Shown in pieces: positions 16,632 through 34,138 of a stretch of DNA of 34,266 bases; within the stretch, counting starts at the first letter, position 1, and every line of letters starts with the position of its first letter. This DNA is from a virus, in IMG/VR virus record IMGVR_UViG_2162886015_000032, positions 1-34,266 of that record; one strand, 5' to 3'. A program made the translations under genes and the position numbers. Under the pieces are notes generated by a model. It was not told the origin of the DNA and ran no database searches. It saw only the letters and a program-made list of their open reading frames with translations.

Positions 16632-16671
16632 GCAAAAGTAGCTCGACTCTCCTCCGTTATGAAGCTAGAAT
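16632..16671 (+). promoter_or_regulatory. Early promoter copy 1
   Basis: An A-rich stretch (GCAAAAG) is followed by TCGACT as a -35-like box and TAGAAT at 16666-16671 as the -10, 17 bases apart. It continues into AAGAG, giving the TAGAATAAGAG core shared with the promoters at 20622, 26309 and 29908. The -35 is weaker than in the other three copies. Confidence 0.7.
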
Positions 16672-16706
16672 AAGAGCGGCGCCATCGAGCGATGGCGCCG
16701 CTCTTA
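16671..16706 (+). terminator. Perfect hairpin at the start of the early transcript
   Basis: 17-base arms with no mismatch (16671-16687 and 16690-16706) and a 2-base centre. The left arm overlaps the end of the -10 box and the expected transcription start. It may be an attenuator, an mRNA-stabilising 5' hairpin or an operator. CCTCTGGGGG and ATG 16721 follow immediately. Confidence 0.7.
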
Positions 16707-19697: not shown

Positions 19698-20603
19698 TTG
19701 TCCATTCACCTGATGGTCGTTGCCGCCTACCTGCCCGAGGACGTGGTGACCCAGGGGCAGAAGCTGGCCCTGATGAAGATCTGCGACTCGGCTGACGATG
19801 AGACACGGCTGTCCAGGCCGGGCTTACGCAGACTGCGGGCGTGGGTCGGCGTCGGTGAGAAGCGGTGCACGACCATCGTCACCGAACTGGTCGCCAAGGG
19901 CCTCATAGAGCGCGTGGAGACAGGCAAGGCGGGCCGCCGCGCGGTGTACCGGGTGTTCCCGATGGGAGTGCCGCCGATCCCGTCCAATGACGACTTGGAC
20001 GCCCGCTTCGCGGCGGCCGACGCGGCGCCGAAGAACCCGCGCAAGGCTCGCACCGGGGTTCGCCGAGCGGCGCCGTCCAAGCCCGCGATGACGCACGAGG
20101 ACATCGACGCGCGGGCGTTGGCCGCAGGCGAAGGTGTGAAGGGGTCAGGGTTCCACGGGTGGAACCCTGCTGAGGGCGAGGGCAGCGTTCCACCCGTGGA
20201 ACCCAGTGGGTTGCACCCATGGAACCCAGTGGGTTCCACCGGTGGAACCCCTTCTCTTCCTTCTTCTTCCTTTGTCCTTCCTTCCTCCCCTACCCCCACG
20301 GCCGTCGCCGCAGGGGAGCGCGGTGGCTGCCCCAAGCATCCTGTCGCTGCTGCGAATTGCCGTGCCTGCGGCACGAACCCTCGCGCCGGTCGCGCGGCGC
20401 AGGAGCGTGAGCGGGCGGAGGCAGATCGGGAGACGGAGCAAGGCTGGCTGCGTGGGTTCCAGGCGGACCTCGACGAGGCGCGGCGGGTGAGGCAGGAGCG
20501 GCCCGAGGACGTCGAGGCAGCCCGGCTGCTGGCCCGTCAGTTGGCCCGCCAGGGGAGGGAGAAGACCCGCAACGGGAACGCGTCCGAAAAAAATCGATCT
20601 TGA
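19698..20603 (+). CDS. Replication initiator with winged-helix domain and internal iterons
   Basis: 301 residues from TTG 19698, with GAGGGA upstream. Residues about 1-95 form a winged helix typical of phage replisome organisers and plasmid Rep proteins (ALMKICDSADDETRLSRPGL, KRCTTIVTELVAKGLIERV). The middle (about 150-195) is low-complexity Pro/Gly/Ser because the DNA there carries palindromic iterons. A CPKH...CRAC zinc-like pair occurs near 213-226. The C-terminus is a charged helix rich in Arg, Glu and Ala. Placing the origin within the initiator gene follows the lambda O plan. No helicase loader or primase is visible, so host replication proteins would be recruited. The stop codon overlaps the -35 of the next promoter. 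Confidence 0.78.
   Translation: MSIHLMVVAAYLPEDVVTQGQKLALMKICDSADDETRLSRPGLRRLRAWVGVGEKRCTTIVTELVAKGLIERVETGKAGRRAVYRVFPMGVPPIPSNDDLDARFAAADAAPKNPRKARTGVRRAAPSKPAMTHEDIDARALAAGEGVKGSGFHGWNPAEGEGSVPPVEPSGLHPWNPVGSTGGTPSLPSSSFVLPSSPTPTAVAAGERGGCPKHPVAAANCRACGTNPRAGRAAQERERAEADRETEQGWLRGFQADLDEARRVRQERPEDVEAARLLARQLARQGREKTRNGNASEKNRS
20147..20303 (+). other. Putative phage replication origin (iterons plus pyrimidine-rich tract)
   Basis: Four inverted repeats of the form GTTCCAC-NN-GTGGAAC lie in the initiator gene. They are at 20147-20168 (10-base arms), 20187-20202 (7-base arms), 20210-20225 (imperfect) and 20231-20250 (perfect 20-base palindrome). Centres are 37, 23 and 23 bases apart, so the last three lie on nearly the same helix face. 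Immediately after, 20251-20300 is almost purely pyrimidine on this strand. This matches the lambda plan of iterons beside a strand-biased, easily opened region inside the initiator gene. Function is inferred. Confidence 0.78.
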
Positions 20604-20627
20604 CCCCTACATGGATGCCGCTAGAAT
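20583..20627 (+). promoter_or_regulatory. Early promoter copy 2
   Basis: An A-tract at 20587-20593, TTGACC at 20600-20605, a 16-base spacer and TAGAAT at 20622-20627 followed by AAGAG. Both hexamers fit the Streptomyces vegetative HrdB consensus. The -35 overlaps the stop codon of the replication initiator gene. Confidence 0.85.
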
Positions 20628-20636
20628 AAGAGGAGT

Positions 20637-20658
20637 GGGAGAAGGGTGGCCCTCTCCC
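20637..20658 (+). other. Leader hairpin of early promoter copy 2
   Basis: GGGAG-A-AGGG pairs with CCCTCTCCC around a TGG loop, starting about where the transcript should begin. It sits upstream of the AAGGAG that serves GTG 20682 and may stabilise the mRNA or regulate it. Confidence 0.5.
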
Positions 20659-20681
20659 TCCGATACCGCAAGGAGAACCGC

Positions 20682-21149
20682 GTGAGCGAGCAGTCGATTG
20701 CAGAGGTAGTAACCGCCACCGTTCCGGACGGGAGCTGGAAGCTCCAGGTCACGTACGGAGAGGGCGAGACCATCGCCGAGGTCTCGTCGTTCGGCGTGAC
20801 GCTGAGCATCACGACCCTGACCGCTGGGGGCGTCGTCACCGTCGAGGACCCGGCGAGTGGCCCGACCGTCCACCGATTCGCCGACACCAGTGAGGCGTAC
20901 GACGCGACCCAATGTCGCGCCGACATCCGCGACGGTGACGTCCTGGTCGTCGAGCCTGAGCGGGTCATCGGGATTCTCGATGAGGCCTGGCCGTTCGCCG
21001 TCACCCAAGCGCACGGCGAGTTTCACGCCCTGAAGATCCCCGCCAGTGAGCACAAGGACGGCCGCTACACGGCCAGCGCCGACCTCGCTGAGCGGATTGC
21101 CGCCGAGCTCGGCTTCCCTCTCGCCGTCCAGCCCGCTCGTACGGCCTGA
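20682..21149 (+). CDS. Early phage protein, unknown function
   Basis: 155 residues from GTG 20682, with AAGGAG seven bases upstream; GTG 20646 is a weaker in-frame alternative. The protein is rich in beta-strands (WKLQVTYGEGETIAEVSSFGVTLSI, GGVVTVEDPA) and acidic segments. A final helix (DLAERIAAELGFPLAV) follows. I recognise no family. It is the first gene of the transcript from promoter copy 2, so its product should appear early in infection or induction; small acidic early proteins often inhibit or redirect host functions, but this is only context. Confidence 0.65.
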   Translation: MSEQSIAEVVTATVPDGSWKLQVTYGEGETIAEVSSFGVTLSITTLTAGGVVTVEDPASGPTVHRFADTSEAYDATQCRADIRDGDVLVVEPERVIGILDEAWPFAVTQAHGEFHALKIPASEHKDGRYTASADLAERIAAELGFPLAVQPARTA

Positions 21150-21194
21150 CCGGCCGACGCCGGCCGTGGCCAGCCCAGCCACTCGCCCGGCAGA

Positions 21195-21208
21195 TCTGCC
21201 ACACCATC
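21195..21208 (+). promoter_or_regulatory. Partial TGTGCCACACCATT motif
   Basis: TCTGCCACACCATC differs from the full motif at two positions and lies 43 bases before ATG 21238, the same spacing as the copies at 16816 and 21878 to within a base. Confidence 0.5.
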
Positions 21209-21237
21209 ACGCCCACATCGCCTCTTGGAGAAACCGA

Positions 21238-21828
21238 ATGGGACACCTGCCCACCCTGCGCCCCGAACACCCGAAGGGCCTCGTCCTTGACTCCGCCCAG
21301 CAAGTCACCCCCGTCCTGATCGCCCTCGCCCGCGCCTGGCGCGAGGACCCCGTCGGTACCGGTGCCCTGTTCGCGGACATCGCCGACCGCGACGACCAAG
21401 CCCGCGCCGAAGCGCACCTGGACGGCCTCGGCTTCGGAGAGCACGCCAGAGACCAACTCGCTGACCAACTGCTCGCCGAGCTCGGCGGTGCCAAGTTCCA
21501 CCTCGGCCGGACGCGCGACCGCCATGCCGTACATCAGGCCCGCCGGATCGCCGAGGAAGCCCGGCACGTGGCCGACATCCTCGATGCGCACGCCAACTGG
21601 ATCACGATCGAGGTCGAGGAGGCCGAGGAGGCCGAGCGGCTGCGCGCTGCCCGAGCCGCAGCCGAGTCGGAGTACCTGCGGGCCTGGTTCAGCTGGGCCG
21701 ACGCCCGCCCGGTCATGGTGGCGGTTGCCGTCCCGGTCCGCTGCGGGCACTGCACCTGCTGGCCGTCCCATGTGAACGGTCTTGCGTGCCACATGGGTTG
21801 CGGAGCTAGGGCGACGCCAAAACCGTGA
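21238..21828 (+). CDS. Early phage protein with C-terminal cysteine cluster
   Basis: 196 residues, ATG eight bases after CCTCTTGGAG. The protein is largely helical, with a strongly charged helix over about 110-150 (EVEEAEEAERLRAARAAAESEY). The C-terminus carries RCGHCTCWPSH and ACHMGCG, at least five closely spaced cysteines plus histidines, a probable zinc-binding module. No enzyme motif is seen. Such proteins occur as orphans in actinophage early regions. A stable hairpin terminator follows directly, so the gene forms a self-contained unit. Confidence 0.68.
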   Translation: MGHLPTLRPEHPKGLVLDSAQQVTPVLIALARAWREDPVGTGALFADIADRDDQARAEAHLDGLGFGEHARDQLADQLLAELGGAKFHLGRTRDRHAVHQARRIAEEARHVADILDAHANWITIEVEEAEEAERLRAARAAAESEYLRAWFSWADARPVMVAVAVPVRCGHCTCWPSHVNGLACHMGCGARATPKP

Positions 21829-21839
21829 GGCGTTGAGAG

Positions 21840-21872
21840 CGGGGTGGCGGAATGCAATCCGCCATCCCGTTT
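21840..21872 (+). terminator. Intergenic hairpin terminator
   Basis: 12-base stem with one G-T pair (21840-21851 and 21858-21869), a 6-base loop, then TTT. It lies shortly after the stop at 21828. Confidence 0.75.
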
Positions 21873-21877
21873 CGAAA

Positions 21878-21891
21878 TGTGCCACAACTCT
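21878..21891 (+). promoter_or_regulatory. Partial TGTGCCACACCATT motif
   Basis: TGTGCCACA is intact and the 3' part diverges (ACTCT). It lies 44 bases before ATG 21922 and just after the terminator hairpin. Confidence 0.45.
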
Positions 21892-21921
21892 GTACCGTAC
21901 GAACCACCTCTTGGAGATCGC

Positions 21922-22593
21922 ATGAATATCGCACCCCTCCCCGACCACGGCCGCGTCGGCCGACCCGAGTGGCAGGCGCTATGGCAGCAGTACGAGCCGG
22001 TCACCACACCGCTGCGCGTGGCCGGACTTGCCTGTGACGTCGACACCTGCGGCGGCCAGACCGTCATCCTCGTCGACCTGCCCGACGGCACGTACCTGGT
22101 CATCGCCTCCGATGACGCGCTCCCCGACCGCCTGGAGCAGGTCACCGGCTGGCGCGTCACGCGCAGCCACCGCGACAACCCGAACTTCGACGCTCTCGTC
22201 TTCGACTCCACCGACGGCGGCGAACACGAGGGGCTCCACGCCGACATCATCTCGCTGCTCGCCGCGGTGGCCCTCTACCTGAAGTCCCTGTCCGACGTGG
22301 ACACGCAGACGGTCGGAACCAAGATCGGCGAAATCCTGATGGCCTCCGCCCACCGGTTCGCCGTCGCCGTCACCGGCGTCAACTCCCAGCACGCCTCCCA
22401 AAGCGCGGTCTTCAGCGGCCCCTTCGCCAGCCACCACGAGACGGTCAAGCAGTACGGCTGGCAGACCCACCTCCTCGAGGAAGGCGACTGGAAGAAGGTC
22501 CACGAACAGGGCGGCACCGAATGGCCCCTGACGGTGTGGAAGCGCCGCGATGCGGTGCTGCTCGTCTTTGTCACCCGCCTGCTCCTCGCCTGA
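21922..22593 (+). CDS. Early phage protein, unknown function
   Basis: 223 residues, ATG eight bases after CCTCTTGGAG. The N-terminal half has beta-strands (QTVILVDLPDGTYLVIASDDAL) in an arrangement resembling a small alpha/beta domain. The second half includes a helix HADIISLLAAVALYLKSL and the terminal VWKRRDAVLLVFVTRLLLA. I recognise no conserved catalytic motif. The gene stands alone between two hairpins, with a TGTGCCACA motif in its leader. The codon usage matches its neighbours, so it is not an obvious recent acquisition. Confidence 0.65.
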   Translation: MNIAPLPDHGRVGRPEWQALWQQYEPVTTPLRVAGLACDVDTCGGQTVILVDLPDGTYLVIASDDALPDRLEQVTGWRVTRSHRDNPNFDALVFDSTDGGEHEGLHADIISLLAAVALYLKSLSDVDTQTVGTKIGEILMASAHRFAVAVTGVNSQHASQSAVFSGPFASHHETVKQYGWQTHLLEEGDWKKVHEQGGTEWPLTVWKRRDAVLLVFVTRLLLA

Positions 22594-22610
22594 CTCCTCC
22601 CGCCCGACCT

Positions 22611-22639
22611 GCCCGGCCCCGCACGGTGCGGGGCCGGGC
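22611..22639 (+). terminator. Intergenic hairpin terminator
   Basis: Perfect 12-base stem (22611-22622 and 22628-22639) with ACGGT as the loop, located between the stop at 22593 and the next ribosome-binding site. Confidence 0.75.
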
Positions 22640-22661
22640 CGCTCGACTTCTTGGAGAACCC

Positions 22662-22841
22662 GTGCCCGACGACCAGCCCCAGGCCCCGGCCGCCTGCTTC
22701 TGCATCATCGCCCACGCCATCACGCCCGCCGACCGCGAGCGGATCGGCGAGTCCATCCGCTACGCCCGTGAGATCGGCGACCTGCAGGCCCTACCGCTGC
22801 TCCTCCTGCAACTGACCGGCTCCTGCCCCGCCCGCCCCTGA
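22662..22841 (+). CDS. Small early protein, unknown function
   Basis: 59 residues from GTG 22662, eight bases after TTCTTGGAG, a variant of the early ribosome-binding element. The protein includes AACFCIIAHAIT, then a helical segment (DRERIGESIRYAREIGDLQALPLLLLQL) and a short tail SCPARP. It has three cysteines, but no clear metal site. It is flanked on both sides by hairpin terminators, so it is a single-gene cassette. No function can be assigned. Confidence 0.65.
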   Translation: MPDDQPQAPAACFCIIAHAITPADRERIGESIRYAREIGDLQALPLLLLQLTGSCPARP

Positions 22842-22850
22842 CCGTCCTCG

Positions 22851-22875
22851 GCCTCGCGCTGCCACAGCGCGAGGC
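22851..22875 (+). terminator. Intergenic hairpin terminator
   Basis: Perfect 11-base stem (22851-22861 and 22865-22875) with CCA as the loop, directly before the methyltransferase gene. Confidence 0.7.
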
Positions 22876-22898
22876 CCTGCCCTCTGGGAGAACACACC

Positions 22899-24446
22899 TT
22901 GTTGGCCACTTTTCCCCGCGACATCGAGCTGACGTTCAACGACCTGCTCGCCGGGGCCGGCGGGTCCTCCTCCGGCCTGGTGGAGGCTGGATGGCGCGGC
23001 AAGCTCGCCATGAACCACTGGCAGACGGCGATGGACTCCCACGCCGCCAACCACCCCAACATCGAGCACCTGACCGCCGACGTCACCGGCTATCCGATGC
23101 GGTTCCTGCCCCGCGCCCTGCTGTTGTGGGCGTCGATCATCTGCACCGAGGTCAGCCCGGCCGGCGGCAATATTCACCCCACCGATCAGCTCGACCTATT
23201 CGATGTCCTCGAACACCTCGACGACGACGAGGCGGAGGACTGGGAGGCGCTGACCCCGGAAGCGTTCGAGAGGACCCGGGCCACGGCGTGGTGCGTCGTG
23301 AGGGCCTGCGAGGCCAAGCGGTTCCCGTACGTCGTGATCGAAAACGTCGTCGAATTCGCCCTGCTCTGGGTCAACTTCAAGTCCTGGGTCAAGGCGTTGA
23401 AGGAGCAGAGCTACGAGGCACCTCAGATTCTGAGCGTCACCTCCGCACACATCGGCGACGACGACAACCTGCGGGCCCCGCAATGGAGGGACCGCATTTA
23501 CATCGTCTTCCGCCTCAAGGGCATGCCCAAACCGGACTTGCAGCCCCGCCCACTGGCGTTCTGCTTCGAGTGCGGCAAAGACGTGCACGCGAAGCAGGTG
23601 TTCTTCGATCTCGGCGTTCGTGTCGGCAAGTACAGGCGCGACTACAGCTACCGCTGCCCCAACAGGCGTTGCCGTCACGCCGAGGTCGAGCCCTACGTGC
23701 GCCCGGCCGCTTCCGTCATCAACTGGGACGACCTCGGCCAGCGCATCGGCGACCGCAAGAAACCCCTGGTGGAGACCACCATGGACCGCATCCGCGCGGG
23801 CCTGGCCAAGTTCCCCCATCAGCCGTCCTCCATCACCGTCAACCACGGCAAGGACGGCACCGACCGGGCATACGCGGTGGCCGAGCGGCCGTTTTCCACC
23901 CGCACCATCAAACAGGGAGACGCGCTGCTCGTGCCGACCGGCGGCAGCTGGAACACCGCGTGCAGCGACGTCGCCGACCCGATGCGTACCCGGCTGACCC
24001 GCGAGAGCGAGGCCCTGGTCACAGTCGACGCCGAGCCGTTTGTGATCACCTACCGGCAAAATGCCAACCCGGCCTTGGCGACCGAGCCGATCACCAGCGT
24101 GACCGCCCAGGGCAACCATCACGGTCTAGTCGTCCCCGGCGGGGCCGTCCCGCCCGGTCTGCGCAACACCCTCGTCATCCCCTACCGCAAGGCCACCGTC
24201 AAGACGGCCGCCGAGCCCGTTCACACACTGTCCACCCGCGACTCGGCCGCACTCCTGAACACCGCGCCCGCCGTGGAGAGCTGCCACTTCCGGATGCTCA
24301 AACCGCGCGAGCAACTGGGAGCCCAGCGGTTCCACGACCGGTACGTCGTCCTCGGCACCCAGGCCGAGCAGACCATGCAGGGCGGGAATGCGGTGTCGGT
24401 CAACGTGGCCCGGCATATCGGCGAGTGCATCAAAGCAGTCCTGTGA
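22899..24446 (+). CDS. DNA cytosine-5 methyltransferase
   Basis: 515 residues from TTG 22899 (TTG 22902 is possible), with CTGGGAG upstream. Motif I is LLAGAGGSSSGL at 16-27. The catalytic loop is IICTEVSPAGG with C82, replacing the usual PCQ. Motif VI is ENV at 148-150, motif VIII is QWRDR at 195-199, and the late motif GNAVSVNVARHI is near the C-terminus. A zinc-binding insert has C222-x2-C225 and a CPNRRC pair. Residues 97-101 read QLDLF, a possible beta-clamp-binding peptide. It probably methylates cytosine at a specific site to protect phage DNA from host restriction. All core motifs are present, so activity is likely. No partner endonuclease is visible. Confidence 0.85.
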   Translation: MLATFPRDIELTFNDLLAGAGGSSSGLVEAGWRGKLAMNHWQTAMDSHAANHPNIEHLTADVTGYPMRFLPRALLLWASIICTEVSPAGGNIHPTDQLDLFDVLEHLDDDEAEDWEALTPEAFERTRATAWCVVRACEAKRFPYVVIENVVEFALLWVNFKSWVKALKEQSYEAPQILSVTSAHIGDDDNLRAPQWRDRIYIVFRLKGMPKPDLQPRPLAFCFECGKDVHAKQVFFDLGVRVGKYRRDYSYRCPNRRCRHAEVEPYVRPAASVINWDDLGQRIGDRKKPLVETTMDRIRAGLAKFPHQPSSITVNHGKDGTDRAYAVAERPFSTRTIKQGDALLVPTGGSWNTACSDVADPMRTRLTRESEALVTVDAEPFVITYRQNANPALATEPITSVTAQGNHHGLVVPGGAVPPGLRNTLVIPYRKATVKTAAEPVHTLSTRDSAALLNTAPAVESCHFRMLKPREQLGAQRFHDRYVVLGTQAEQTMQGGNAVSVNVARHIGECIKAVL

Positions 24447-24901
24447 CTGGCGGGTGGGCCCTTCGGGCGCCCTGCCACCTCAGTGACGGTTTCACCGTCA
24501 CGGAGGACGACTGGAAAACGGGAGCCGACCTCAAGCGCCTGTGCGGGCCCCAGCTCCCCACCTGCGGGCCGTGCCCGTTCCGTGCTCTGTGCATCGCCAC
24601 CGTCAAACCGGCCCAGGCCAAGTTCGACGGCATCGCCGGCGGCCGCCTGTGGTGTAACGGCGACGTCATCGACGCCCTCGACGACGTCAATGACGAGGAG
24701 CTGGCCGAGCCGAAACTGCGCGCCTCCTGCGGCACTGAGGCGGGAGCCAAGGACCACACCCGCCACGGCGAAAGTCCCTGCCCCTCCTGCCGCCAAGCGG
24801 TCCGCGAGATGACCGCGCGCCGCAAGGAAGAGGCGGAGGCCAACGCCAGAGCCAAGGCCAGCGGACCTGGGCAACTGCAGTTCGACTTCGCCACCACCTG
24901 A
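24443..24901 (+). CDS. WhiB-like Fe-S protein, divergent
   Basis: 152 residues, GTG overlapping the methyltransferase stop as GTGA. It has C11, then C41-x2-C44-x5-C50, followed by KFDGIAGGRLW. This matches the WhiB-like plan of four cysteines binding a 4Fe-4S cluster followed by a Gly-rich turn and Trp, although the usual GVWGG is altered. A second cysteine set (SCGTEAG...CPSC, about 91-112) leads to a charged helix. The C-terminus is QLQFDF plus four residues, a possible clamp-binding hexapeptide. Phage WhiB-like proteins can bind the principal sigma factor and repress host genes; that role here is inferred. Confidence 0.65.
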   Translation: MTGGWALRAPCHLSDGFTVTEDDWKTGADLKRLCGPQLPTCGPCPFRALCIATVKPAQAKFDGIAGGRLWCNGDVIDALDDVNDEELAEPKLRASCGTEAGAKDHTRHGESPCPSCRQAVREMTARRKEEAEANARAKASGPGQLQFDFATT

Positions 24902-24907
24902 CCCCTC

Positions 24908-24938
24908 GCCTGCCCGCCCAGGACCGGGGCGGGCAGGC
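24908..24938 (+). terminator. Intergenic hairpin terminator
   Basis: Perfect 12-base stem (24908-24919 and 24927-24938) with a 7-base loop, after the WhiB-like gene. Confidence 0.7.
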
Positions 24939-24963
24939 CCGCCATCCCGCATTGGAGAGGACC

Positions 24964-25473
24964 ATGCCCCATCCCGCCACCCCGCGCCCCCTGCGCCAGA
25001 GCCTGCAACCCATGATCGCCGGTGCCGTCCTGGCCAGCTCCCACCCTGGCCTGATCGCCGACAGCATCGAGATCGACCACCTTGGCGTCGCCACCGGCGA
25101 CGACCCGCTCGGCCTGCGCGTGTTCCTGTACTACCCCGGCGACGGCGTGTTCCAGCAATGGGTGCACGCCATCGGTGCCACCGAGTTCGGCGCACCCCGG
25201 CCCACCAGCCGACCCGGCGAGTTGTCCCACACCGCCACCGGGCACGTCGGCCACACCCCTGTCGAGGTCACCTGTCTGATGCAGCGCGACGAGTGGGTGT
25301 GGCGCACTAGCACCGGAAGCGACGTCCACAGACGGGACCGCGCCAAGGACGGTTCCTGGGCGGTCTGCGGCGACCTGATTGCGGGCGTCGTCGACGCCCG
25401 TAACTCACTGCATCCGCAACCGCACTGCCCCGGTTGCGGGAAACCCGACACCGTCCCGGCAGACGCGCGGTGA
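24964..25473 (+). CDS. Early phage protein with C-terminal zinc site
   Basis: 169 residues, ATG after TTGGAGAGG. A beta-rich core (IEIDHLGVATGDDPLGLRVFLYYPGDG, EVTCLMQRDEWVWR) is followed by CPGC near the C-terminus (HPQPHCPGCGKPD), a half zinc site. I recognise no family. The stop overlaps the next start (GTGA), so this gene and the next are translationally coupled, unusual in a region where genes are otherwise insulated by hairpins. Confidence 0.65.
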   Translation: MPHPATPRPLRQSLQPMIAGAVLASSHPGLIADSIEIDHLGVATGDDPLGLRVFLYYPGDGVFQQWVHAIGATEFGAPRPTSRPGELSHTATGHVGHTPVEVTCLMQRDEWVWRTSTGSDVHRRDRAKDGSWAVCGDLIAGVVDARNSLHPQPHCPGCGKPDTVPADAR

Positions 25474-25649
25474 TCCGAACCAAGGGTCGTGCCTGTACCG
25501 GCAAGCGCCGCCACGACACCCGCCAAGAAGCCATGGAGCACTGCGACCGGCTGATGGCCAAGGGTGCCGTGCGCTTGGCCGCCTACCCGTGTCGCAACCG
25601 CACTTGCGGCGGCTGGCACGTCGGCCATCTGCCCAAGCCCCGCTCCTGA
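25470..25649 (+). CDS. Small zinc-ribbon-like early protein
   Basis: 59 residues from GTG 25470, overlapping the preceding stop by GTGA. The pattern CTGKRRHDTRQEAMEHC, then LAAYPCRNRTCGGWHVGH, is that of a widespread actinobacterial phage and mobile-element family with a conserved Cys/His cluster (C-G-G-W-H). It is probably a zinc-stabilised nucleic-acid-binding protein; the precise role is unknown. A longer in-frame reading from 25434 overlaps the upstream gene and is not preferred. Confidence 0.7.
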   Translation: MIRTKGRACTGKRRHDTRQEAMEHCDRLMAKGAVRLAAYPCRNRTCGGWHVGHLPKPRS

Positions 25650-25663
25650 CAGACCCCCGAACC

Positions 25664-25702
25664 GGGCCGCGCCCACGGTGATCACCCCTGCGGGCGCGGC
25701 CC
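25664..25702 (+). terminator. Intergenic hairpin, family A copy 1
   Basis: Perfect 11-base stem (25664-25674 and 25692-25702) with a 17-base loop. The loop contains ATCACCCCT and is similar to that of the hairpin at 26197, so the two are related copies. Confidence 0.65.
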
Positions 25703-25733
25703 CACCACCCCTCATGAAGGAGCACAGGCCACC

Positions 25734-26183
25734 ATGGAAACTCCCAGCCGCACCCGGCTCGTCCAACTGCGCGCCACCAACGGTGATTTCAGCCAGGTCG
25801 CGCCGGCGAGGAGCGAGATTGCCGCGGCCGCAGGCGGCCGCGAAATGTATGGCGTGTGCTGCGGCCTCGCTGAAGCTGCACGACAGGCCCTCATCCGGTT
25901 ATACGGGCACCCGAGCCCGCAGCTCCTGTGGGCGCTGGCCGCGCCCGACCCGGCCGACGGCCCTCAGTGCCCGGCACGCGACCTCTCGCTGCGATTCATC
26001 ACCGCCTCCGTCAGTGGCGACCTGCCGACTTGCCAAGCCCTTCATCGGGCGGCGGTATCCGCGGGTCCCCAAGGCTACGAGCACTTCCTGAAAGCGTTGA
26101 TCGCCGGCGTCTTCCACCTGACCCGAGTTGCCCTGGACGAGCGCACCGCCAACGGCGAGACGCCCGCCCAGCACCCGCACTAG
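25734..26183 (+). CDS. Early phage protein, unknown function
   Basis: 149 residues, ATG after AAGGAGCAC. The protein is mostly alpha-helical, with EMYGVCCGLAEAARQALIRLYGH, LLWALAAPDPADG and GYEHFLKALIAGVFHLTRVAL. Three of its four cysteines (CC and C near 40 and 82) are scattered without a metal-site pattern. I recognise no family. The gene is flanked by two related hairpins, consistent with a cassette that can be gained or lost by recombination. Confidence 0.62.
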   Translation: METPSRTRLVQLRATNGDFSQVAPARSEIAAAAGGREMYGVCCGLAEAARQALIRLYGHPSPQLLWALAAPDPADGPQCPARDLSLRFITASVSGDLPTCQALHRAAVSAGPQGYEHFLKALIAGVFHLTRVALDERTANGETPAQHPH

Positions 26184-26196
26184 CCCGACGGCTGGC

Positions 26197-26229
26197 CCGC
26201 GCCCGCAGCGACCACCCCTCGGGGCGCGG
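26197..26229 (+). terminator. Intergenic hairpin, family A copy 2
   Basis: 8-base stem (26197-26204 and 26222-26229) with a 17-base loop resembling that of the hairpin at 25664, including ACCACCCCT. Confidence 0.55.
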
Positions 26230-26271
26230 CATCCATCAACCATGCAAGGAACGGCCAGCTGACCAGGTGAA

Positions 26272-26314
26272 ACGCGAAAAGATTTCTTGCCCCCACCAGG
26301 AATGCACGTAGAAT
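26272..26314 (+). promoter_or_regulatory. Early promoter copy 3
   Basis: GAAAAGATTTC, TTGCCC at 26287-26292, a 16-base spacer, TAGAAT at 26309-26314 then AAGAG. Same layout as copies 2 and 4. Confidence 0.82.
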
Positions 26315-26440
26315 AAGAGGAACAGGAAGGGGAGTCGCCCGGTGTCGAAGACGCCAAGAAAGTGCGCCACGGGAGACGTGGACGCAAGGCGCAGGGCTGG
26401 GCGGCACTCCGCAACGACGATCGGCCTCTTGGAGGAGCCC

Positions 26441-26719
26441 GTGATCACCCTGCTGGACCAGTTCGCCGCCAACCTCGGCGAAGCCGACGACGCTGTCGCC
26501 GCCCTCGTCGGCGACAGCCTGTATATCCGCTACGCCAACGACCCGGCCATCCTGAAGATCACCTCGCGGCCCGGGTGTGACGAGGTCAAGATCACTTTCC
26601 AGGTCATCCACCCCGAGCGCGGCCCGATCGACGCAACCAGCTTTGTCCTGACCCGCGCGCAGGACTTCACGTTCGCCCTGGAGCAGCTGGAGTCGTACCA
26701 GGAGATCTGGTTCGCCTGA
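26441..26719 (+). CDS. Early phage protein, unknown function
   Basis: 92 residues from GTG 26441, seven bases after CCTCTTGGAGG. GTG 26342, with GGGGAG upstream, is in frame and would add 33 residues that partly encode the ribosome-binding element itself (GLLEEPV), so the shorter form is preferred. The protein has an N-terminal helix (LLDQFAANLGEADDAVAALVG), strands (LYIRYANDPAILKITSR, VKITFQVIHPE) and a last helix. I recognise no family. It is the first gene of the promoter copy 3 transcript. Confidence 0.6.
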   Translation: MITLLDQFAANLGEADDAVAALVGDSLYIRYANDPAILKITSRPGCDEVKITFQVIHPERGPIDATSFVLTRAQDFTFALEQLESYQEIWFA

Positions 26720-26729
26720 CCTTGCCCTG

Positions 26730-26763
26730 CGCCAGCCGCCCACCTGATGGCGGTCGGCTGGCG
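26730..26763 (+). terminator. Intergenic hairpin terminator
   Basis: CGCCAGCCG at 26730-26738 pairs with CGGCTGGCG at 26755-26763, a 9-base stem with further inner pairing. Confidence 0.6.
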
Positions 26764-26799
26764 TCGTCCCTGCAGAACCACGGCCTCTTGGAGGAAGCC

Positions 26800-27171
26800 A
26801 TGAACAGCACCGGACGCACCGACCCTCTCGCAGCTCCTTACGCCCTCATGACCGGCCAGGTGACCGAACGTTTCGCCGATGTCCTTGAAGGCCCGCACCT
26901 GCAAGCCCTGCTCGCGGAGCGTTTCGGCCTCACCGCTGACGCTGCAGGCCAGGCCGCGATCACCGTCGGCCAGGTCTTGACCGTGACCTGGCATGCGGCG
27001 GGGTACGGGCAGGAGTTCCGTACGTGGATCGGCTGCATGCCCGACGTGCTTCTGAAGTGCTTCGTGGAGATGGCCGCCCGCGCCGAGCGTGACGAGTTTG
27101 CCGCCGGCCATGCGGTGCACATCGGCCGTCAGGTGTTCACCGAACTCGCCCTGCGGCTCCGCCCGTTCTGA
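26800..27171 (+). CDS. Early phage protein, unknown function
   Basis: 123 residues, ATG seven bases after CCTCTTGGAGG. The sequence is helical (VTERFADVLEGPHLQALLAERFGLTADAAGQAAITVGQ) with a central VLTVTWHAAGYGQEFRTWIG. I recognise no family. It has one cysteine pair far apart (C104-range), no metal site, and no membrane segment. It is the second gene behind promoter copy 3, but a hairpin separates it from the first, so read-through or antitermination would be needed for co-expression. Confidence 0.62.
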   Translation: MNSTGRTDPLAAPYALMTGQVTERFADVLEGPHLQALLAERFGLTADAAGQAAITVGQVLTVTWHAAGYGQEFRTWIGCMPDVLLKCFVEMAARAERDEFAAGHAVHIGRQVFTELALRLRPF

Positions 27172-27225
27172 CCCGCGCAGGGGGTCACCGCGGTGGCGGC
27201 CCCCTTCACCGACTGGGAGATAGTC

Positions 27226-27615
27226 ATGAGCAAGACCATTCGCGGCGTCCGCCTCGACGTCGACGGCACCCTCGCCGACGTTCAACTGCCCGCTGGCGAC
27301 GGCCTGGCGGAGGCGCTGCGCGAGCACGTCGACGGGTGGGTTGAGATCGCTCACTACGCCCGCCCGGACGGCACGCGCCGCCTGGCGGTAGCCGTCGACG
27401 CCGACGGAGCGGCCCGGAAGTCCGAGAACCTGTACGTGACGTCGTTGCTCAACGCCGTCTACGTCAAGCAACTGCCGTACTGCCTGCGTGGGCCGGTTGT
27501 CCTGCTGGGGGCGCTGGACGGCTCGCGTCACCACGCAGACGTTCCCGAGCAGCTGCACGAGATCCTGCCGAAGATCATGGGCGCTCTCAAGGTGCGCTAC
27601 GGCACCGCCACCTGA
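27226..27615 (+). CDS. DUF3846-like early protein
   Basis: 129 residues, ATG after CTGGGAGATAG. The N-terminus RGVRLDVDGTLADVQLPAG, then LAEALREHVDGWVEIAHYARPDG, and NAVYVKQLPYCLRGPVVLLGALDG resemble the DUF3846 family, small phage and plasmid proteins of unknown function whose start reads like a beta-strand/loop followed by a helix and whose end has a G-x-V-V-L-L-G signature. The DxDGT stretch is not a HAD hydrolase active site in context. Family assignment is tentative. Confidence 0.55.
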   Translation: MSKTIRGVRLDVDGTLADVQLPAGDGLAEALREHVDGWVEIAHYARPDGTRRLAVAVDADGAARKSENLYVTSLLNAVYVKQLPYCLRGPVVLLGALDGSRHHADVPEQLHEILPKIMGALKVRYGTAT

Positions 27616-27654
27616 CTGACGCGGCCGGGCCTCGCCAGGGCCTGGCCGGACTGA

Positions 27655-27674
27655 TGTGCCACACCATTCGAACG
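27655..27674 (+). promoter_or_regulatory. TGTGCCACACCATT motif (exact copy)
   Basis: The 14-base motif is followed by CGAACG, including TTCGAA. Unlike other copies it lies 96 bases before the next start (27751) because a hairpin terminator is interposed. Confidence 0.5.
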
Positions 27675-27696
27675 CCTGCCGCCACATCGTCACCTC

Positions 27697-27726
27697 GGCC
27701 GGGCCCCGCGCTGCGGGCGCCCGGCC
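27697..27726 (+). terminator. Intergenic hairpin terminator
   Basis: GC-rich stem (27697-27709 with 27713-27726, one bulge) with GCT as the loop, followed by CTTTAT. It sits between the TGTGCCACACCATT motif and GTG 27751. Confidence 0.65.
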
Positions 27727-27750
27727 CTTTATGCCCAGAGGAGCAACACC

Positions 27751-28245
27751 GTGCCCGACGCCAATCAGCCACAGCAGCCTGCCCACATGATCGAGACCCG
27801 GGTCTGTATCGATGACACGCTCGGCCCCTACGACGCCAAGCTCGATCCTGCGGACCGGTGGAACGGCGCGCTCTCCCCGTACTTCACCCTCGACACCGTG
27901 CGCCAGCTCGCGGCCCGCACGCAGGAGATGGCCGAGGAGCGGGGTCACGACACTGTCGACACGATCCACGTAGTCGACGGCGACGCTCGCCGCGAGGGCG
28001 AGCCCCGCACGGCCGTCGTCTCGATCCGGCGGTGCTACGTCGACGAATACTCCGAGTCGGACACCGAGATCATCCAGCCCAGCAGCGAGGGCCTGTACGG
28101 CGTCGGCAGCTGGGAGTGGACCTGGCAATACGTGACCTGGTCATGCGCCTGCGGCTCCGACACGCCATGGCACGAGACCTGCTGCAAGAGTTGCGGCTTG
28201 CCTCGCCCGGAAGGCGTCGCCGCGCATGCGGACGGCCGCCCCTGA
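27751..28245 (+). CDS. Early phage protein with C-terminal zinc ribbon
   Basis: 164 residues from GTG, with GAGGAG upstream. The N-terminal two-thirds is alpha/beta (YFTLDTVRQLAARTQEMAEERG, VDTIHVVDGDARREGEPRTAVVSIRRCYVDEY). The C-terminal region WSCACGSDTPWHETCCKSCGLPRP has five cysteines in CxC and CCxxC arrangement and a histidine, a likely zinc ribbon for nucleic acid or protein contact. No enzymatic motif is recognised. Confidence 0.65.
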   Translation: MPDANQPQQPAHMIETRVCIDDTLGPYDAKLDPADRWNGALSPYFTLDTVRQLAARTQEMAEERGHDTVDTIHVVDGDARREGEPRTAVVSIRRCYVDEYSESDTEIIQPSSEGLYGVGSWEWTWQYVTWSCACGSDTPWHETCCKSCGLPRPEGVAAHADGRP

Positions 28246-28299
28246 GACTGCTTCACCCACTCCTGGCCGGGTGTCTGTCACCGCAGGCGCCCTTCCAGG

Positions 28300-28322
28300 T
28301 GTGCCACACCATTCGATCGAAT
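28300..28322 (+). promoter_or_regulatory. TGTGCCACACCATT motif with perfect palindrome
   Basis: Exact motif overlapping CATTCGATCGAATG (28309-28322), a perfect 14-base palindrome. It lies 46 bases before ATG 28346. The overlap of motif and dyad parallels the copy at 16816. Confidence 0.58.
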
Positions 28323-28345
28323 GAAGAAATCGGAGTCACCGTGTC

Positions 28346-28663
28346 ATGACCATCACCCGCCTCGACTATCTCGCGGCGAACGGCACCGACAACTTGTGCC
28401 AGCGGATCTTCCTGGCTGACGCCAACGGTCTCAGCGTCAAGGGCAAGCCTGGCGCCGTCGAGTTCGAAGAGGTCTACCTGGCCGAGGGACTCGACGCACC
28501 CGACGCCGACGGCTGGGAGCAGCAGGACGACATGGAGCTGTGGCTCACCAGCGGTGAACAGCCGGACCGCGGCCACCTGTTCTACGACGTGCCGGTGGCC
28601 GCCGTTCGCCTGCTGATCGATGAGCACGGCGGCGAGGACGCCGGCCAGGATCCCATCGCCTGA
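28346..28663 (+). CDS. Early phage protein, unknown function
   Basis: 105 residues, ATG after CGGAGTCACC. The protein is strongly acidic (EFEEVYLAEGLDAPDADGWEQQDDMELWL; DEHGGEDAGQD). Such acidic small proteins can mimic DNA, but no fold can be inferred. One cysteine only. It lies just before the HsdM-like gene and behind a TGTGCCACACCATT element. No family recognised. Confidence 0.6.
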   Translation: MTITRLDYLAANGTDNLCQRIFLADANGLSVKGKPGAVEFEEVYLAEGLDAPDADGWEQQDDMELWLTSGEQPDRGHLFYDVPVAAVRLLIDEHGGEDAGQDPIA

Positions 28664-28747
28664 CATCCCCCTGAGCGCCCCGTCATCCTGCCGAATTCCG
28701 GCCCGGGTGGCGGGGCGCCCTCATGCCCGCACTCGAAGGAGTAACTC

Positions 28748-29860
28748 GTGGAGCAGCTCGACCTGTTCGCCGCCGCCGAGGAAACCCCGGTCCCGGCGAC
28801 CTTCGCCGCCCGTTCCAAGTCGCCCCGTCCGATCACGATCCCCCCGGCGCCTCGCCCGGCGTCCGCGCCCCGCCCGGTCGCCGTTGTCGACGATGAGACC
28901 AACGCCCTGTTCGCAGACCTTCGCCCTGAACCACCGTCCGTCCAGACCCCCATCGCAGCGCCGCGCCGAATCGCGCCCCTGCTGATCGGCAACCCGCGTG
29001 ACGCCGGACAGCGCCTCGGCGAAGCCGTCGCGGACGCCTGGCACGCCTCCAACTGGGGCGGCTACCGCATCGACATCCCCGTCAGCATCGTCGCCGGCCT
29101 GGCGCTGTTTCCCATCAAGGGCCACACCGATGACGTCGCCCGCATCATCGGCAACTGCAGTGACTGGGAGCTCCTGCAGGGCTACCGCGAGATCTACGCG
29201 CACACCTGGGCGCACCGGCCCGACCTGGGGGCCCGCATGGCGCCGCTGATGGGCTGGCTCACCGAGGAGGGTGTGGAGGAGAAGGCGTACGCGGTGCGCC
29301 GGGTGACAGATACGGCGCTGCGCTACGGCATTCTGCAGCTGACCGGCGATCCCGACCCCTACCTCCGCTCCGACACTGACGTGATCTCGTGGACAATCAC
29401 CTCGCTGCGTTCGCACGGCGCCCGCCAGGGCCTCGGCGAGTACCACACGCCCCCCGAGGTGTGCGACATGATGGCCCGCGTCCTGATCGACGAGCCGCCC
29501 GAGAAGGGGGAGCGGTTCCACGAGCCTGCCGGCGGCACGGGCGGTATGTTCCGCGCTGCCGCCCAGCGACTGCGCGAGCTGCAGGTCGACCCCGCCGACT
29601 ATGTGTGGGCGCTGAACGAACTTGAACCGCTCGCCGCCGCTGGCGCGGCCGCCAACGCGATCGTGTGGGGCCTGGGCCCGAACGTGGTGATCGCTTGCGG
29701 CGACACCCTCGCGCAGGGCGATCTACAGGAGCAGGCCCGGCGGGAGCGGAGGGCCCAGTTCGAGGAGCGGGACGAGATCCTCGGCCGCATCGCGGTCGCC
29801 GAAGCAGTGCATGAAGCGATAACGCTCGCTGATCGGCTCATGGGCTCAAAGGCCGTCTGA
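28748..29860 (+). CDS. HsdM-like N6-adenine methyltransferase homologue lacking motif IV
   Basis: 370 residues from GTG, eight bases after AAGGAG. Residues 3-7 are QLDLF, a match to the beta-clamp-binding consensus. A Pro/Ala-rich linker runs to about 75. The HsdM-type GEYHTPPEV lies at 230-238 and the SAM-binding EPAGGTGG at 259-266, with NELEPLAAAGAA and CGDTL after it. The catalytic N/D-P-P-Y/F expected about 20-40 residues after CGDTL is absent; the chain instead ends in a charged helix (QEQARRERRAQFEERDEIL). No HsdS or HsdR is nearby. It may bind SAM without methylating, or act as a regulator or partner of another subunit. The C-terminal helix looks like normal protein, not truncation debris. 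Confidence 0.72.
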   Translation: MEQLDLFAAAEETPVPATFAARSKSPRPITIPPAPRPASAPRPVAVVDDETNALFADLRPEPPSVQTPIAAPRRIAPLLIGNPRDAGQRLGEAVADAWHASNWGGYRIDIPVSIVAGLALFPIKGHTDDVARIIGNCSDWELLQGYREIYAHTWAHRPDLGARMAPLMGWLTEEGVEEKAYAVRRVTDTALRYGILQLTGDPDPYLRSDTDVISWTITSLRSHGARQGLGEYHTPPEVCDMMARVLIDEPPEKGERFHEPAGGTGGMFRAAAQRLRELQVDPADYVWALNELEPLAAAGAAANAIVWGLGPNVVIACGDTLAQGDLQEQARRERRAQFEERDEILGRIAVAEAVHEAITLADRLMGSKAV

Positions 29861-29872
29861 CCTGGTGTTTTC

Positions 29873-29913
29873 CTGGAAAAATTCTTGCCCGGCCATCTCT
29901 TTGCCATTAGAAT
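29873..29913 (+). promoter_or_regulatory. Early promoter copy 4
   Basis: GGAAAAATTC, TTGCCC at 29885-29890, a 17-base spacer, TAGAAT at 29908-29913 then AAGAG. A weak leader hairpin follows (29922-29927 pairing with 29938-29943). Confidence 0.83.
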
Positions 29914-29964
29914 AAGAGTTTGGAGGGAGTGTGATCCCCCTCCCCGCGACCAGAAGGGAACCGA

Positions 29965-30153
29965 ATGTACGAGACCGGCCAGTGCATCGTCCTTGAGGCC
30001 ACCACCGACCCTCACACTGACCTCCGCCCAGGCGACGAGGGCACCGTCCGCTCCTACAACCCCACCCTCAGACAGCTCGGAGTCGACTGGGACAGCGGCT
30101 CCAGCCTCTCGATGCTCCTCGACGAAGGCGACCGCATCCGCCTCCTCCTTTGA
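29965..30153 (+). CDS. DUF4314 family protein
   Basis: 62 residues, ATG after AAGGGA. The sequence fits DUF4314: GQCIVLEATTDPHTDLRPGD, EGTVRSYNP, then LGVDWDSGSSLSMLLDEGDRIRLL. This is a small SH3-like beta barrel common on actinobacterial plasmids, integrative elements and phages; the function is not established. It is the first gene of promoter copy 4 and is followed by a strong hairpin. Confidence 0.85.
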   Translation: MYETGQCIVLEATTDPHTDLRPGDEGTVRSYNPTLRQLGVDWDSGSSLSMLLDEGDRIRLLL

Positions 30154-30159
30154 TCGCCA

Positions 30160-30182
30160 GGCCCCGCCCACCGGGCGGGGCC
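30160..30182 (+). terminator. Intergenic hairpin terminator
   Basis: Perfect 10-base stem (30160-30169 and 30173-30182) with ACC as the loop, extended by an A-T pair, six bases after the DUF4314 stop. Confidence 0.8.
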
Positions 30183-30216
30183 TTCGAGCACCGCCGACCG
30201 ACCTCTTGGAGGACCC

Positions 30217-30516
30217 GTGCAACTCGTAGCCCCGACCTTCGACGTTCAGCTCGAACTCCCGGCCCTCGAAGCCACCGCCCGCAAGTGGGCCACCCGCACG
30301 CGCGCGCTCAACCGTGCCGTCTGCGACGACCAGGAGCACGCCCTAACCGTCGCCGCAGTCCAGCTCGACTCCGCCGCTCAATACCTCCGCCACGGTGACG
30401 TCGGCAAGGCCCGCGATGCCCTGCGCATCGCCAGCAACTACGCCGGCAGCGAGGAAGCCACCGCCCCCCGCATCGCCGAAGCCGCCCGAACCCTCCTGGC
30501 CGCCATCCCGGCCTGA
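30217..30516 (+). CDS. Small helical early protein, unknown function
   Basis: 99 residues from GTG, seven bases after CCTCTTGGAGG. Mostly helical (LEATARKWATRTRALNRAV, ALTVAAVQLDSAAQYLRHG, KARDALRIASNYAGSEEA). It may form a coiled-coil or helical bundle. Its first codons (GTGCAACTCG) and the upstream element are nearly identical to those of the gene at 30584, so the two starts may share an origin. No family recognised. Confidence 0.6.
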   Translation: MQLVAPTFDVQLELPALEATARKWATRTRALNRAVCDDQEHALTVAAVQLDSAAQYLRHGDVGKARDALRIASNYAGSEEATAPRIAEAARTLLAAIPA

Positions 30517-30526
30517 CCCCTAAACC

Positions 30527-30545
30527 CCCGCCCACCAGGGGCGGG
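30527..30545 (+). terminator. Intergenic hairpin terminator
   Basis: CCCGCCC at 30527-30533 pairs with GGGCGGG at 30539-30545 around ACCAG. Confidence 0.6.
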
Positions 30546-30583
30546 ACCCGAACCACACCAACGACCTCTTGGAGAAGAACGTC

Positions 30584-31369
30584 GTGCAACTCGCCCCCTC
30601 AGCCCTCCACTCCACCGCCGAAACCCTCACCGGCTCCCTCGGTGCTGGCAACTGGCAGGTCAATGAGCTGATCATCGACGGCATCGTCAGCCTCGACGGC
30701 CCCCACGACCGACGGATCGGCATGCGCCTTCTCGGCGACGGCAGCAGCATCCAACTGTGGGCCACCGGCGGCGCCGAGCCCGCCGACCACGAGTCCATCG
30801 AGGGCACCGCCCCCCTTCCGTGCAACCACCGCTGGCACACTCCCGTTCACATAGGACGCCTCGAAGCGGACAAGGACCCCGCAGCCGTTCTCTACGCCGC
30901 AATCAGTGACCGGCTGTTGCCCGCCTTCGACGCCAAGCCGCTCTACGTCGGCCACCGGCCGTGGGAAGAGGCCTTCGACAGCGCACTATCCCAAGTGCTG
31001 GACGAGTCGCCGCGGACGACAGGAACCTCCCTACGCGACTGCGGACCGGAAGCCCACGTGCAGCCCAACGGCGCCGGTCCCGACCTGAAGCATTCAGCCG
31101 ACGCCGAGCCTGCGCCTACGCCCGAGGCCACGCCTGAGCCCGAACCGAAAACCCCCGCCCAGCAGACCAAGGCCAAGCCCCAGCCCGAGTCGGGGCCCGC
31201 CGGGAAGCAGATCCGCCGTCCCAAGGCCGCCTCTCCGGCCGCCGGCAGCGACGCCAAGCCGAGCGCCACCCGAAAGCGCACGACCGCCAAGCCCGCCACC
31301 CCAGCCACCGACAGCGAGCCCAAGCCCCGACCGGCCCGCAAGCGAGCCAGCAAGCCCTCCACTTCCTGA
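30584..31369 (+). CDS. Early protein with long basic histone-like C-terminal tail
   Basis: 261 residues from GTG 30584, after CCTCTTGGAGAAG. The first 150 residues form a folded domain with strands (NWQVNELIIDGIVSLDGPHD, IGMRLLGDGSSIQLWAT) and helices (DPAAVLYAAISDRLLPAF, PWEEAFDSALSQVL). From about residue 165 to the end the chain is Pro/Ala/Lys/Arg-rich, with KPSATRKRTTAKPATPA and ARKRASKPSTS, like histone H1 or actinobacterial HU tails. This suggests binding of nucleic acid by an unfolded basic tail. The head domain is not recognised. The Sak4-like protein has a similar tail. Confidence 0.65.
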   Translation: MQLAPSALHSTAETLTGSLGAGNWQVNELIIDGIVSLDGPHDRRIGMRLLGDGSSIQLWATGGAEPADHESIEGTAPLPCNHRWHTPVHIGRLEADKDPAAVLYAAISDRLLPAFDAKPLYVGHRPWEEAFDSALSQVLDESPRTTGTSLRDCGPEAHVQPNGAGPDLKHSADAEPAPTPEATPEPEPKTPAQQTKAKPQPESGPAGKQIRRPKAASPAAGSDAKPSATRKRTTAKPATPATDSEPKPRPARKRASKPSTS

Positions 31370-31380
31370 CCACAACCCAA

Positions 31381-31410
31381 AGGGCCGCCCACCCACCGGT
31401 GGGCGGCCCT
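31381..31410 (+). terminator. Intergenic hairpin, family B copy 1
   Basis: Perfect 13-base stem (31381-31393 and 31398-31410) with CACC as the loop. Related to the hairpin at 31808. Confidence 0.8.
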
Positions 31411-31451
31411 ACCCATACCCCGAGTAGCAGCCTGAAAGGGACACACCGCCC

Positions 31452-31748
31452 ATGCCCACGAGCTTCCACCGCCAGCCTGAGCAACACCCGCACACCGTCT
31501 ACGCCGCCGCGCGAGCCGCCCTTGAGTTCCTGGGGGACCAGTGGGGTGCCCTGCCAGGCCCCTGCGGCACGACCGGACACCTGCACAACGCCGACCACAT
31601 CCCGTTCACGGTCGGCGTCTGCGAGGCCGGACACCTCTACCTCCGCAACGACGCCCAAGGCGACAGTGTCCACCTGCCCTTCACCTCCACCGACGACCCC
31701 ACCGCCATCGGCCAGACCATCGCCAAGGTCATCGGCGACCTGTACTGA
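31452..31748 (+). CDS. Early phage protein, unknown function
   Basis: 98 residues, ATG after AAGGGACAC. A helix (VYAAARAALEFLGDQWG) is followed by a strand-rich segment (IPFTVGVCEAGHLYLRNDAQGDSVHLPF) and a final helix. No cysteine cluster or catalytic motif. It is the last intact early gene, with a terminator hairpin 60 bases downstream. No family recognised. Confidence 0.6.
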   Translation: MPTSFHRQPEQHPHTVYAAARAALEFLGDQWGALPGPCGTTGHLHNADHIPFTVGVCEAGHLYLRNDAQGDSVHLPFTSTDDPTAIGQTIAKVIGDLY

Positions 31749-31807
31749 CAGCCACCTCCTGGCCCTGCGACACCTCGCCAACCAACCCCTCGATCCCAGT
31801 CCCATTC

Positions 31808-31837
31808 GGGCCGCCCACTCCACTAGGTGGGCGGCCC
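31808..31837 (+). terminator. Intergenic hairpin, family B copy 2
   Basis: 11-base stem (31808-31818 and 31827-31837), GGGCCGCCCAC with GTGGGCGGCCC, loop of 8 bases. Same stem sequence as the hairpin at 31381. Confidence 0.7.
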
Positions 31838-32337
31838 GGCAGGCGCAGAACGACGAACAGCTCCTCGCCTCCGCAATGCGCGCGGCCATTAGCCGCGGCG
31901 AAATCGACATCGTCCTGTGGCATGACGGCTTCGAGCTCACCGATCTGGACGACAGACAGATGGCAATGATCCTTCGCCAGTTCGCCACAACAGCTGACCT
32001 CGCAACACTCCTCGGCATCCCCGAAGCCGACATCACCGTGCCCGCTGACCGCAGAGCATCGACGGGGCGGAATTCTCGGGCGGTGCGTGGGTCCGGCGGT
32101 TTACAGGCCGCCAGCCTTGGCCGGGAACTTCTGGATCGTTGCGACGAAGCGTCGGGCTTGTCCAGGTCGACGAGGGTCGACCGGCTTCTGCAACTGGAAC
32201 TGGTCGCCCCGCGGGGGGTGCCCCTATGCCTTTGGTCAAGTGAAACGAGGGTGCGTTGGGTCGGTGGGCCGGGCAGCATGACGGAGTGGCGGATCTGCTG
32301 TGGGATGACGTGTGCTGTTTCTTCGACCCGGACTTGA
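31838..32337 (+). pseudogene. Broken ORF at the right end of the phage genes
   Basis: From about 31838 to about 32075 the frame reads like true protein: QAQNDEQLLASAMRAAISRG, EIDIVLWHDGFELTDLDD, RQMAMILRQFATTADLATLL, GIPEADITVPADRR. ATG 31876 is the only normal start and has no ribosome-binding site. Beyond about 32075 the same frame becomes low-quality sequence (ICCGMTCAVSS) up to a stop at 32337, overlapping the next gene in another frame. The element seems to have lost its 5' signals and 3' end, placing a recombination junction around 32050-32100. Confidence 0.5.
32076..32285. other. Junction region with a minus-strand coding remnant
   Basis: About 210 bases without an intact gene. On the minus strand, 32101-32220 reads about 38 codons ending in RRFVATIQKFPAKAGGL and a TAA, which looks like the C-terminus of a lost gene. 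I see no att core, integrase or tRNA. This is the probable right boundary of the phage-derived DNA. Confidence 0.35.
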
Positions 32338-34032: not shown

Positions 34033-34102
34033 GAAGACCTCCGTGCGGTGCAGTCCTAGACAGCTCCACCACATCGGAGGTCTTCGCCATGTTCAAGACC
34101 CG

Positions 34103-34132
34103 CCACTGTCAACAACGCTCGTGATCAATACA
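34103..34132 (-). repeat. Right inverted repeat of the IS481 element
   Basis: Read on the minus strand: TGTATTGA, five variable bases, AGCGTTGTT, then GACA. Mirrors the left repeat. Confidence 0.85.
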
Positions 34133-34138
34133 GCTAGC
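34133..34138. repeat. Target-site duplication GCTAGC, right copy
   Basis: Second copy of GCTAGC flanking the IS481 element. Confidence 0.85.

Follow-up and report, generated by a model that had tools for sequence, protein, structure and literature searches.

Results

The initiator gene and its surroundings

The window, i.e. the whole stretch of DNA analysed here, is a linear virus record of 34,266 bases. By profile annotation it carries tail genes, an endolysin, a Sak4-like ATPase, a PDDEXK nuclease and two methylases. An ORF of 301 aa with a TTG start lies on the + strand at 19698–20603 and matches the PHROG profiles phrog_270 'replication initiation protein' (E 3.6e-7) and phrog_391 'replication initiation O-like' (E 2.7e-6), the O-like match being weak and confined to aa 1–138. 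This replication initiator gene contains the putative origin. A sequence-only reading had put four iterons and a pyrimidine tract inside an initiator gene, and all of them indeed fall within this ORF. The neighbourhood made up of Sak4-like ATPase, PDDEXK nuclease, initiator and dcm is kept among relatives.

The protein is predicted to have two folded parts. AlphaFold2 models aa 1–142 (19698–20123, +) as an N-terminal winged-helix DNA-binding domain ending in a basic arm, with a mean pLDDT of 85.9. In the full-length model aa 145–210, which the iterons and the tract encode, are disordered, and the C-terminal domain (20319–20600, +) has a Zn-ribbon-like CxxH...CxxCG motif preceding two long helices of high pLDDT (228–267 and 269–298). 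A Pfam scan to E 1 yields HTH_36 and MarR_2 only, and PF13730 HTH_36 (E 9e-4) stays under its curated cut-off. The PDB has no match to the initiator by sequence. By fold, the best PDB matches are the N-terminal domains of RepA_N plasmid initiators (4pql, 4pt7 and 5kbj); the 4pql match (E 7e-4, probability 1.0, 14% identity) has a TM of 0.45, which is the best reached and is generic to winged helices.

A promoter-like site at 16643–16671 (+), a sigma-70-like consensus match only (2 found, 0.1 expected), lies upstream of the early operon, which reads rightwards through the putative origin. This placement is compatible with transcription through the origin. Close behind the site (16643–16696 together) is a perfect palindrome GCCATCGAGCGATGGC at 16681, a possible repressor operator for the early operon. 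Another promoter-like sequence, TTGACC-16-TAGAAT at 20600–20627, overlaps the end of the initiator gene and probably drives the next gene. A consensus scan found no promoter-like site overlapping the iteron array.

By family profiles other than one for P itself, the next genes downstream match nothing, and none could be recognised as a P-like or DnaC-like partner. A profile search with working positive controls found no DnaB_C domain in ten related records. At the record's right end, an IS481-type transposase (33076–34074, −) may mark an insertion or a border between prophage and host.

The iteron array

The word GTTCCACnnGTGGAAC occurs exactly at 20150, 20187 and 20233, and the copy at 20210, GTTGCACCCATGGAAC, has 2 mismatches. 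The start-to-start spacing of the four copies is 37, 23 and 23. A 20-bp description, GGGTTCCACnnGTGGAACCC, fits the sites better and by sequence match defines, with no strand assigned, iteron 1 at 20148–20167 (GGGTTCCACGGGTGGAACCC), iteron 2 at 20185–20204 (GCGTTCCACCCGTGGAACCC), iteron 3 at 20208–20227 (GGGTTGCACCCATGGAACCC, imperfect) and iteron 4 at 20231–20250 (GGGTTCCACCGGTGGAACCC, a perfect palindrome). The position and spacing of the array are thus as first read, although one of its four palindromes is imperfect. The 34 kb hold nine perfect 7-2-7 palindromes, and only the three exact copies here are clustered and of the same sequence. The reversed pattern has 0 matches within the record.

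The iterons start in ORF reading frames 0, 1, 0 and 2, and all three frames thus translate the same DNA word. Repeats at the protein level were rejected as the cause, given the three frames and the spacings, none of which is divisible by three. The consensus of 201 sites is GGGTT[CTG]C[AC]CnnG[TG]G[GA]AACCC. Position 8/13 is the only one at which the two halves of a site change symmetrically more often than by chance, with 72 cases observed against 45 expected.

The pyrimidine tract and the inverted repeat

The array runs into a pyrimidine tract at 20248–20297 (+, coding strand), the proposed unwinding element. With 2 purines in 50 nt it bears out the earlier description of about 50 nearly purine-free bases, and it is the window's sole 50-mer with two purines, the next lowest elsewhere having 11. 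The tract has a GC content of 46–54%. Ranked by low duplex stability, its part at 20251–20285 comes within the top 0.06% of the window's 35-bp stretches.

A C-run with a GC-rich inverted repeat, CCCCTACCCCCACGGCCGTCGCCGCAGGGGAG, follows at 20287–20318 (no strand). Its arms lie at 20293–20302 and 20307–20316, with two mismatches in the window. The element had been delimited as 20147–20303; it is placed correctly by that, but its 3′ end is too early, as the terminal hairpin element was missed and the conserved block described below goes on to about 20318. Covariation as proof of a hairpin was rejected, since 144 of 500 shuffles scored as high. The stem is too conserved to lend support by covariation, hence 'inverted repeat' is the safe term.

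Three relatives have a frameshifted gene. In two of them (L008 and L021), one C lost or gained in the tract's poly-C run shifts the frame out of the C-terminal domain. In the other (L009), an apparent loss of 46 bp between iterons leaves two sites 37 bp apart. These frameshifts may reflect errors of sequencing, decay or a variable run length.

Constraint on the DNA

Synonymous conservation was measured in a codon alignment of 15 intact relatives. The synonymous identity is 0.74–0.91 across aa 151–206 and mostly 0.3–0.7 elsewhere; at the tract it is 0.83–0.89, against 0.28–0.35 expected. In the block of aa 150–206, the mean excess over the codon-usage expectation is 0.42, compared with 0.13 outside, and 0 of 20,000 permutations were as high (Mann–Whitney p 1e-13). 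By part, the excess is 0.32 for the iterons, 0.57 for the tract and 0.53 for the 3′ hairpin. Since the sites use three frames and the peak of synonymous conservation coincides exactly with them, the constraint acts on the DNA rather than on the protein.

The GC skew also changes near the element. Its slope shifts at a distance of no more than about 2 kb in all 5 contigs compared, i.e. the window and four related ones, and to the right of the element the skew is clearly negative in all five (20646–34266 in the window; related contigs L084–L096). A leading strand usually has an excess of G. The sign here is opposite, and gene content may account for it. With this non-standard sign and the homologous gene orders among the contigs, the skew carries little weight and is only suggestive of an origin.

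Relatives and their range

About 45 related loci came from viral contigs, species genomes and Streptomyces genomes, and every named host belongs to the Streptomycetaceae. A protein match is present in 8 of 121 Streptomyces genomes, a remnant in G059 included, and the hairpin pattern in 18 of 394. The G059 copy (L034) is a truncated, decayed initiator without iterons. Across the class, 198 actinobacterial genomes yielded a single sure match, in a Streptomyces already among those found; a second match was no better than the reversed-pattern control. Phages and plasmids searched by DNA, protein and hairpin gave no match, 72,556 plasmids among them. Several relatives are located far from the ends of long bacterial contigs, as expected of integrated prophages.

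The 37/23/23 spacing is conserved nearly everywhere, and in some relatives a fifth site precedes the others by 30 or 33 bp. A distant relative on a 126.9-kb contig (L011) has six different repeats, GGGTCCA...GCAGACCC, then a 13-bp inverted repeat. Its C-terminal part is longer and weakly resembles a primosomal protein (phrog_3992, E 0.025). Two other loci, L036 (G034) and L056, have a second winged-helix ORF immediately 5′ of the initiator. It is short, belongs to the same family and has no iterons, and is possibly a paralogue for DNA binding only.

Coupled change of residue 116 and the half-site base

Codon 116 (Lys, 20043–20045, +) lies in the arm that follows the wing, APKNPR[K/L]AR, and we propose it as a specificity residue from its column's association with the half-site base. 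The 26 loci with K116 have A at iteron position 8/13 in 50–100% of half-sites. The 19 loci with L116 have C-type half-sites, without any A in 18; the exception (L054) has A in 3 of 8. The A fractions of the two groups do not overlap across the 45 loci, and column 116 is the sole perfectly associated column of the alignment. The association was first found in 19 loci, so that the later ones make a partial out-of-sample test.

On a tree from aa 1–105, residue 116 and the half-site base both change five times, and together. The independent pairs on well supported branches number 2, and a sign test on them is without power. The exceptional L054 is nested within the Lys clade and the residues flanking its codon 116 are of K-clade type, hence it looks like a switch in progress. 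These flanks, and the lack of perfect association at any other column, make linkage through recombination an unlikely cause. The K clade with five iterons has many C half-sites, which suggests that K is compatible with C, whereas L seems incompatible with A.

Exchange of the N-terminal module

A scan with the hairpin element found four initiators (L046, L051, L057 and L071) with a different N-terminal domain, which matches phrog_4707, a replication initiation protein profile (E 8.5e-16). Their repeats differ and the pyrimidine tract is absent, but the 30-nt hairpin element and the C-terminal domain are retained, and the position in the genome is unchanged, directly 3′ of the same PDDEXK gene. 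The C-terminal domain is common to both types (41–54% over short stretches). Between the window type and the alternatives, the DNA of the hairpin element is 93–100% identical over its first 15 nt and 73–93% over its next 15 nt, whereas the flanks are mostly 6–50% identical upstream and mostly 20–60% downstream. Hence the C-run and hairpin are conserved as DNA and go with the C-terminal domain, not with the iterons.

Discussion

The element very probably is a lambda-type replication origin within its own initiator gene, in a family of temperate phages of Streptomycetaceae. A lambda-like intragenic origin was already the sequence-only reading, and it gains support from the PHROG initiator matches, the winged helix, the iterons of fixed spacing in three frames, the conservation at the DNA level and the layout of the lambda control. 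In the literature, we found no origin of this intragenic kind for Streptomyces phages.

In lambda, an O dimer binds each inverted-repeat iteron, strand asymmetry marks the AT-rich region, and O binds DNA through its N-terminal domain and P through its C-terminal one (PMC6022878, PMC5043065, PMC7466680). In the lambda control record, four iterons are annotated within O and fall into three reading frames; a purine-rich AT tract comes next and is immediately followed by a 10-bp inverted repeat, TTCGTCAGAG-AATT-CTGGCGAA. Likewise here, the element lies within the initiator coding sequence (20148–20318 in 19698–20603), with a putative origin role. It has four inverted-repeat iterons of the 18–20 bp class, a strand-asymmetric tract of low stability beside iteron 4 and an inverted repeat directly after the tract. 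Also as in O, the protein would join an N-terminal DNA-binding domain through an origin-encoded linker to a C-terminal partner domain.

The differences from lambda are considerable. The window's iterons are 20 bp, GC-rich, unrelated in sequence and spaced by 37/23/23. The coding strand of the tract is C/T in a GC-rich context, whereas lambda has purines, and a conserved C-run precedes the hairpin. Neither a P gene nor a phage helicase is recognised, and the profile similarity to O is weak. Among the Stx phages, P27 and 933W also have extra in-gene iterons that lengthen O (PMC7466680), like the fifth iteron here, but their O is unrelated in sequence and host, and the supposed specificity residue varies with the iteron sequence in our family.

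The plasmid initiators offer another comparison, and with it the reading that a RepA_N or Rep_3 replicon was captured by the phage for extrachromosomal maintenance and is not its lytic origin. The RepA_N initiators of the pSK41 type give the best fold match to the winged-helix domain, and they have central sites in rep, a dispensable linker and a host-facing C-terminal domain (PMC5703833), to which the present protein can be likened; a PF13730 N-terminus is also on record for an initiator from a staphylococcal plasmid (PMC5703833). Nevertheless, Pfam gives no RepA_N (PF06970) or Rep_3 match, the hosts, the repeats and the C-terminal domain differ, and none of the plasmids searched matched. The iteron plasmids, Rep_3 and similar, share the array of initiator sites beside an unwinding element, but most of their iterons are direct repeats to which monomers bind (PMC5043065), not palindromes. 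Moreover, the gene is embedded in a prophage cassette of recombination and early genes, on a phage rather than a plasmid, and several relatives sit prophage-like deep in bacterial contigs. We thus regard such a capture as very unlikely.

The palindromes may instead be operators only, at which the winged-helix protein or a phage repressor regulates transcription within the gene, the origin being elsewhere. Many MarR-type regulators are also among the fold matches, the sites are in the early operon and a promoter-like site follows at 20600. We consider this unlikely: no promoter-like site overlaps the array, the profiles name a replication initiator and not a regulator, and operators would leave unexplained both the conserved pyrimidine tract with its hairpin and the module of hairpin and C-terminal domain, kept despite the exchange of the DNA-binding domain and the repeats. 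A role in the transcript, as a terminator, an attenuator or a programmed-frameshift element, is the least credible of all. Iteron 4 with its T/C-rich tail does fit a terminator-like pattern, and two relatives are frameshifted at the poly-C run. Yet the terminator-like matches are at chance (3 against 2.6 expected), Rfam has no match, and the frameshifts, in 2 of about 46 loci, resemble single-base changes of run length. RNA folding also leaves unexplained the palindromes with 2-nt centres, the fixed 23-bp spacing, the three frames and the coupling to a protein residue.

For the lambda-type origin, we envisage that the winged-helix domain would bind each 20-bp palindrome as a dimer, with a sequence specificity that depends partly on residue 116 in the basic arm behind the wing. 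Four dimers on the iterons would assemble a nucleoprotein complex. Negative supercoiling, aided by the rightward transcription of the early operon, could then open the pyrimidine tract beside iteron 4. The C-terminal Zn-ribbon and helical domain would act jointly with the C-run and inverted repeat (20287–20318) to recruit the host replication machinery; the use of the host's helicase is presumed because no phage helicase was found.

The exchange of the N-terminal part further suggests, tentatively and with slightly more doubt than belief, an origin of two exchangeable modules. One would be the DNA-binding domain with the iterons and the melting tract, its specificity switchable by replacing K116 with L and the A of the half-sites with C. 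The other would be the constant 30-nt C-run and hairpin with the Zn-ribbon C-terminal domain, docking the actinobacterial replisome on any such front end. If so, the hairpin would serve, as single-stranded DNA, for loading or priming rather than as a site for the initiator.

The variants of residue 116 and the iterons are supposedly a natural specificity set, and an unusually clean one. With about 45 natural variants having coupled changes in protein and DNA, the recognition between initiator and origin becomes testable by single substitutions. Specificity variants could yield orthogonal replicons for Streptomyces, and the constant hairpin and C-terminal domain would give a handle on phage helicase loading in Actinobacteria without a recognisable loader.
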